From assembly GCF_030268965.1 (NCBI RefSeq), contig NZ_BSSE01000004.1, positions 186,001 through 250,000 on the forward strand: 64,000 nt of DNA, given 5' to 3'. Each line of letters begins with the position of its first letter. The first letter of the stretch is position 1. The position numbers were made by a program, and so were the translations under genes. The notes beneath the pieces were generated by a model that saw nothing but the letters and a program-made list of their open reading frames with translations, did not search any database and had not been told where the DNA came from. Below are positions 16,241 through 16,439 of this stretch, in pieces. This stretch comes from Microtetraspora sp. NBRC 16547. Lineage in GTDB: Bacteria; Actinomycetota; Actinomycetes; Streptosporangiales; Streptosporangiaceae.

Positions 16241-16283
16241 CCGTACGGCGTGCGCCCCTCGACAGGGGGCGCACGCCGTACGG
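16241..16283 (+). terminator. Strong hairpin after ndh
   Basis: An 18-bp perfect stem (16241-16258 with 16266-16283; it starts CCGTACGGCG) with a 7-nt loop follows the ndh stop by 19 nt and is followed by CTTTCC. It is a likely terminator that separates ndh from the tRNA gene. Confidence 0.85.
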
Positions 16284-16363
16284 CTTTCCATGTCCGGAAG
16301 AAGGAGAAGCGGCGTAAGGTCCAACCAGTTACAGATGAGCGATCCGTGACGTATGATCGCGGC

Positions 16364-16439
16364 GCCCCCGTAGCCCAATGGCAGAGGCAAGCCCCTTAAA
16401 AGGGCTCCGGTGTGGGTTCGAGTCCCACCGGGGGCACCA
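16364..16439 (+). tRNA. tRNA with UAA anticodon, short (class I) form
   Basis: The cloverleaf can be drawn directly. The acceptor stem GCCCCCG pairs with CGGGGGC, discriminator A and CCA are encoded, and the T arm is GTGGG-TTCGAGT-CCCAC. The anticodon arm is AGCCC-CTTAAAA-GGGCT, giving anticodon UAA, which would read the leucine codon UUA. The variable loop is only 5 nt (CCGGT), whereas bacterial tRNA-Leu is class II with a long variable arm, so the amino-acid identity is uncertain. The D stem is weak: three pairs (GCC/GGC) plus a C-A mismatch. Total length is 73 nt without CCA. Confidence 0.85.

Follow-up and report, generated by a model that had tools for sequence, protein, structure and literature searches.

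Described systems closest to the locus reported here are the class II tRNA-Leu(UAA) of bacteria, the tRNA-Leu(UUR) of animal mitochondria and a short tRNA-Leu of Mycobacterium. In the excerpts consulted, tRNA-Leu is listed as class II (PMC7609411), bacterial tRNA genes are called surprisingly uniform (PMC4033280), and a 2023 review describes tRNA-Leu as long-armed everywhere except in animal mitochondria (PMC9976931). Figure legends mention several Sec, Ser, Tyr or Leu tRNAs with short variable arms (PMC2265525, PMC2474678; excerpts). In the M. tuberculosis set, tRNA-Leu-2, -3 and -5 are named as the long-loop ones, and the short tRNA-Leu draw no remark in the part consulted (PMC11541572). A single UUA tRNA gene is given for each of six Streptomyces (PMC4932002, excerpt). 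Our search, confined to the open-access literature, returned no statement of a group-wide armless actinobacterial tRNA-Leu, and tRNA specialists may already know of this form.

The window, which is the whole stretch of 64,000 nucleotides of Microtetraspora DNA that was analysed, contained a single tRNA called by ARAGORN, on the + strand at 16364-16439 with anticodon taa. The features of the locus are as follows.

16328..16357, + strand: predicted sigma-70-type promoter GTTACA-N18-TATGAT (consensus scan; both hexamers invariant in 5 genomes)
16364..16439, + strand: class I tRNA-Leu(UAA) gene (ARAGORN; RF00005, 59 bits; direct sequence reading)
16373..16388, + strand: D arm, with a 3-bp stem (16373-16375/16386-16388), a 13-22 mismatch and the loop AATGGCAGA
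16397..16399, + strand: anticodon UAA, within the loop CTTAAAA (16395-16401), with U33 at 16396 (ARAGORN and sequence)
16407..16411, + strand: variable loop CCGGT, 5 nt, class I, last base U48 (sequence reading)
16436..16436, + strand: discriminator A73 (sequence reading)
16437-16439, + strand: encoded CCA (sequence reading)

The match to the Rfam tRNA family (RF00005) scored 59 bits where the gathering threshold is 29, which places the gene in that family. The acceptor stem (GCCCCCG/CGGGGGC) was paired at 7 of 7 positions, and the anticodon stem (AGCCC/GGGCT) and the T stem (GTGGG/CCCAC) at 5 of 5 each. The variable loop of 5 nt falls below the 10 nt or more of a class II variable arm. ARAGORN, RF00005 and direct reading thus confirmed an intact, complete class I cloverleaf with anticodon UAA, as a sequence-only reading of this DNA had described it, and that reading was right to see a conflict with the class II form expected of bacterial tRNA-Leu. 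The same reading had called the D stem weak. The stem (GCC/GGC) does consist of 3 bp with a 13-22 mismatch, but this architecture is common to both class II tRNA-Leu (CAG and GAG) of the same genome, and the D loop is identical to that of the class II tRNA-Leu(CAG).

Compared with the canonical class II tRNA-Leu(UAA), including bldA of Streptomyces, the window tRNA shares the anticodon UAA, A73, the pairs G1-C72 and C2-G71 and the reading of UUA, as well as a 3-bp D stem and a D loop of the AA..G(G).AGA type (cf. L355, L356). It differs in having the 5-nt variable loop where the canonical form has a long arm, and it is not a member of the class II, Streptomyces-type bldA form. It resembles the animal mitochondrial tRNA-Leu(UUR), which is charged through A73 and A14 (PMC9976931, excerpt), in having no long arm; however, the mitochondrial tRNA is organellar and its anticodon branch is floppy in human, whereas the window tRNA is bacterial, has full stems and occurs beside class II tRNA-Leu. 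The Mycobacterium cluster tRNA-Leu(TAG) is likewise actinobacterial with a short variable loop, but in the excerpt consulted it is an extra copy beside a long-loop isoacceptor (PMC6582537), whereas here class I tRNAs are the only readers found for UUA, UUG and CUA. A class I tRNA-Leu(UAA) in an actinomycete contradicts the animal-mitochondria-only exception as worded in the part of the 2023 review consulted (PMC9976931).

In the 7.8-Mb assembly (100% complete by estimate), 60 RF00005 matches were obtained and 60 tRNA genes were typed by ARAGORN. Five were tRNA-Leu, two of class II (CAG, 84 nt; GAG, 87 nt) and three of class I (UAG, 74 nt; CAA, 76 nt; UAA, 76 nt). The sequence-only reading had raised the possibility of a second UUA reader and advised a search for the genome's class II tRNA-Leu(UAA); the 60 RF00005 matches included no other UUA reader, and the class II Leu(UAA) pattern had 0 matches in this genome. 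Such a gene should not have been missed, since the class II serine tRNAs were recovered by the same search. No UUA reader besides the window tRNA was thus found in the genome, where UUA, UUG and CUA appear to be read by class I tRNAs only. By whole-sequence identity its nearest relative was tRNA-Leu(CAA) (79%), followed by tRNA-Lys(CUU) (71%). The E. coli leucine identity set consists of A73, A15-U48, G18G19 and A20a (PMC9976931, excerpt), and the window tRNA carries this core, which is not exclusive to leucine. Because the set is derived from E. coli, and A15, G18G19, U48 and A73 are also present in the genome's tRNA-Lys(UUU), these bases are compatible with leucine without proving it.

The meaning of the codons was examined by comparing 270 open frames in 344 kb of the genome's own DNA with three relatives (338 frame-by-genome pairs at 70% protein identity or more). 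Codon sites were retained when at least 7 of 10 neighbours matched, and the counts are site-by-genome comparisons rather than independent events. Where UUG sites differed (266 comparisons), the codon found in the relative was CUG, CUC or CUU in 229, UUA or CUA in 2 and another codon in 35. At CUA sites, 48 of 55 differing comparisons led to CUG, CUC or CUU, 3 to UUA or UUG and 4 to others. UUG and CUA are therefore synonyms of the ordinary leucine codons, as CUG, CUC and CUU belong to the two class II tRNAs. UUA was the rarest leucine codon (25 of 102,015 codons of own DNA); it was retained in 8 comparisons and differed in 11 further ones, which came from 4 sites and led to CUG or CUC in 4, to UUG or CUA in 7 and to other codons in 0. 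The direction is the same as for UUG and CUA and, on these few sites, points to UUA meaning leucine too, so that the anticodon would read a leucine codon here. In contrast, 82 of 246 differing comparisons at AUG sites led to leucine codons. A smaller first run without the neighbour filter had the same outcome for the codon exchanges.

The structure of the tRNA was compared among 159 predicted Leu(UAA) genes shorter than 80 nt (including two of 78 nt, L118 and L351), which reduced to 116 distinct ones. Standard pairs occupied 2313 of the 2320 stem cells of these 116 class I genes. Most stem pairs occurred in several types, with many double changes; the pair 28-42, for example, was found as G-C, C-G, A-T and T-A. 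The variable loop had 5 nt in 98 of the distinct genes, 6 in 16, 7 in 1 and 9 in 1. U48 was present in 115 of 116 and A15 in 114 of 116, and among distinct cores of class I UAA genes A73 was present in 118 of 118. Part of the set had been selected by a motif in the D arm and the anticodon loop, so constancy in that arm and that loop is partly built in. Chance is excluded as an origin of the cloverleaf, because at least the first 74 bases are identical in the window genome and 3 congeners and the pairing is kept in the 116 distinct relatives.

The promoter-like sequence GTTACA-N18-TATGAT ends 6 bases 5' of the tRNA gene, a spacing with which transcription would begin on or close to the gene's first base. 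Both hexamers, and the tRNA as far as base 74, were invariant in 5 genomes of two genera (the window genome, 3 congeners and 1 member of another genus), and about 75 bases upstream of the tRNA were nearly so. The DNA 3' of base 74, including the encoded CCA, had diverged among the same genomes.

The interval from the upstream gene to the tRNA promoter contains a perfect 18-base inverted repeat (16241-16258 with 16266-16283, span 16241-16283). The repeat is terminator-like, yet has no T run, and it was absent from the output of the terminator scan.

The distribution of the class I form was followed in a set of genomes whose families are labelled f1, f4 and so on, f1 being the family of the window genome; we take f18 to be Streptomycetaceae and f4 to be Mycobacteriaceae, judging by tRNA type and genome size. 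BLAST matches to the window tRNA were obtained in 146 of 150 f1 genomes, although weak ones may be other tRNAs. Of 34 typed loci from f1 and congeners, 30 held a Leu(taa) and the other 4 a Leu(caa), all of class I; at one of the Leu(caa) loci ARAGORN also made a 96-nt Pro call, which was taken as spurious. All 20 further family loci, chosen in part as misses of the U33 pattern, were class I Leu(taa). When 296 actinomycete genomes were scanned, 168 had a match to the class I UAA pattern and 80 a match to its class II counterpart, chance matches included. Backward patterns, used as a control, matched 3 of 296 genomes for class I and 16 of 296 for class II, so some of the class II matches are due to chance. 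When 42 loci were fetched, all 30 that matched the class I pattern and 10 of the 12 that matched the class II pattern were called tRNA-Leu(taa) by ARAGORN; of the ten confirmed class II-pattern loci, one measured 78 nt and nine 83-86 nt. A class II match in an f1 genome (G098) consisted of the letters of a tRNA-Gly.

The tallies by family were counted by hand. The class I pattern was found in 22 of 24 f4 genomes and 21 of 22 f19 genomes, with no class II match in either family. It was found in 23 of 24 f26 genomes, with 1 class II match whose letters are those of L118, the 78-nt form; in 12 of 13 f36 genomes, with 1 class II match at a locus that holds no tRNA (L119); and in 14 of 14 f34 genomes, with 2 class II matches. 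For f18 the result was class II in 27 of 27 genomes, one of them typed by ARAGORN (L356), and class I in 0 of 27. The f17 family gave 0 of 26 with the class I pattern (TTAAA) and 2 class II matches, one a real class II gene and the other no tRNA; a relaxed pattern found the same letters at class I length in 6 of 6 f17 genomes. In a scan of named genomes, the 80 loci among the matches listed comprised 74 with a class I Leu(taa) 74-77 nt long, 1 truncated where its contig stops and 5 that were not tRNAs. Sources named among the matches listed were Mycobacterium, Mycolicibacterium, Corynebacterium, Nocardia, Rhodococcus, Gordonia, Microbacterium, Pseudonocardia, Streptosporangium, Actinomadura and Spirillospora. 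E. coli genomes gave no match. The sequence-only reading had advised an alignment of homologues in related genera; in the 116 distinct genes described above the stems are kept almost throughout. For its lineage the window gene is ordinary and apparently functional, and it is an instance of a wide and little-remarked exception to a textbook rule.

A class I Leu(UAA) was also observed in six metagenome-assembled genomes with odd labels (L206, L209, L223, L237, L269, L271; Planctomycetota twice, Rokuibacteriota, Deltaproteobacteria, Acidobacteria and an unnamed bacterium), where contamination is possible. A pattern for both classes, which can miss genes, found both forms in the Rokuibacteriota assembly and class I with no recognisable class II in the other five; that of the unnamed bacterium had one additional match, which was not tRNA-like. 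Streptomyces phage Tomas (L359, 301-375) encodes a UUA reader of its own in the form of a class I tRNA-Leu(taa), as does a Sinorhizobium phage. Similar tRNA-Leu matches were obtained in records of other Streptomyces phages. The bldA tRNA of Streptomyces hosts is class II.

The other isoacceptors differed in class between genomes. Leu(UAG) was class I in the window genome, in five members of its family (G067, G049, G090, G114, G024) and in G273, G317 and G330, and class II in G006 (f1) and in matching genomes of f4, f19 and f36. Leu(CAA) was class I in the window genome, G090, G317, G201 and G180 and class II in G172; the CAA patterns recovered few genes and so do not establish how widely class I Leu(CAA) occurs. 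The arm was therefore lost, or regained, separately in different isoacceptors.

Position 33 is U in nearly all elongator tRNAs. The class I UAA pattern with C in this position (CCTAAAA) matched 77 of 150 family genomes, against 0 of 150 for its backward control; two of 79 matches (G016:C110, G094:C353) were unlike this tRNA, and both genomes have another, proper match. C33 was present in 15 of 20 fully read family loci, and G120 had one gene of each kind (U33 and C33; L148, L149). The TTAAA pattern had no match in 17 of 28 f1 and 26 of 26 f17 genomes, and the 13 of those 17 f1 genomes that were in the C33 sample all had the C33 pattern (13/13). Two tRNAs fetched from f17 were class I Leu(taa) with C33, and 4 more f17 genomes were identical from position 34 on; in these four, position 33 is probably not U, because the TTAAA pattern missed them. 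The C33 loci of the two families are L130-L139, L143-L145, L147, L149, L338 and L339.

A single LeuRS gene above the family cut-off was found in the window genome (C19:63643-66084, 838 aa). With three class I forms among the five tRNA-Leu found, this enzyme would have to handle both classes. E. coli tRNA-Leu variants without the long arm remain active (PMC9976931, excerpt). We considered a LeuRS architecture that tracks tRNA class and rejected it: the match to LeuRS was interrupted near model position 142 in f18 (class II UAA pattern) and also in f4, f19 and G174 (class I), and it was continuous there in the window genome (class I) and also in G172 and G180 (class II). No actinobacterial LeuRS-tRNA complex was recognisable among 60 of 76 PDB sequences.

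Taken together, the gene at 16364-16439 is very probably a genuine, leucine-charged tRNA-Leu(UAA) without a long arm, which would be transcribed from its own promoter, receive leucine from the single ordinary LeuRS of the cell and decode the rare codon UUA. LeuRS would accept the armless tRNA because leucine identity in bacteria resides in A73 and the D-loop/T-loop core (A15-U48, G18G19, A20a) rather than in the variable arm, and these features are kept. Leucylation by the ordinary LeuRS is the simplest reading, as the identity elements are present and the D loop equals that of Leu(CAG). A leucine anticodon can nevertheless mislead: a human tRNA gene with such an anticodon and no long arm proved to be tRNA-Met-like and near silent (PMC8450103, excerpt), so shape and anticodon alone are not sufficient. 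The sequence-only reading had entertained an odd identity. In such a case the body would be recognised by another synthetase, such as LysRS or AsnRS, and UUA would be recoded or deliberately mistranslated. The class I shape and the ranking of Lys and Asn tRNAs next after Leu(CAA) by identity would fit this idea, but UUG and CUA exchange mainly with CUG, CUC and CUU and UUA only with leucine codons, the genome has no other UUA reader that we could find, and a recoding tRNA should show a change of codons, whereas the same tRNA type recurs across many actinomycete families. We regard an odd identity as very unlikely, even counting in its favour that missense tRNAs are reported in streptomycetes. 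For a decayed or silent gene, also proposed at that stage, the chance is vanishingly small: nothing suggests it except that the long arm is absent and the D stem short, and this stands against a gene and promoter hexamers invariant in 5 genomes beside diverged downstream DNA, against stem pairing preserved through compensatory changes in the relatives and against the loss of the only UUA reader found.

A genuine tRNA-Leu(UAA) could have an added regulatory role, with which it is compatible and not in competition. In that case scarce or slow decoding of UUA would gate genes containing UUA, as with bldA in Streptomyces, and C at position 33 may make decoding slower still. The rarity of UUA speaks for such a role, as does C33, whose pattern occurs in about half of the family genomes (77/150) and which both fully read f17 tRNAs carry (2/2); but the window genome itself has U33, and the rarity of UUA may simply follow from high G+C. 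We consider the regulatory role unlikely. A broader scenario, which we also consider unlikely, is that much of the Actinomycetes dropped the long arm, isoacceptor by isoacceptor, while a single LeuRS serves both shapes, and that in at least two families C33 acts as an inbuilt slow decoder, which could turn UUA into a translational switch without bldA.

A long arm counts as a hallmark of tRNA-Leu, and an armless form across many actinomycete families would be a bacterial exception of wide reach. Such tRNAs are a natural test of what LeuRS requires, with a bearing on drug work on LeuRS and on tRNA isotype models. They also recast bldA, as the class II UUA reader is by pattern the minority form (80 versus 168 of the 296 genomes sampled), and the C33 variants make the question of U33 testable in living bacteria.

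Several further tRNA-like sequences were observed in the same genome. At G000:C39:48573-48730 (L086), outside the window, two atypical tRNA genes lie next to each other, one with anticodon GGC and one with CUC; their bodies are similar (74% mutual identity), and the second shares no more than 68% identity with the genome's tRNA-Glu(CUC). A tRNA-like gene at G000:C1:26686-26764 (L051), also outside the window, is nearest to tRNA-Glu (~72%) and contains an extra CCC-GCAA-GGG hairpin in its anticodon arm, and the ARAGORN call of Cys(gca) is doubtful. Two tRNA-Sec-like stretches, at G000:C7:145713 and C8:234427, were pattern matches assessed visually; it would be unusual for a genome to have two.
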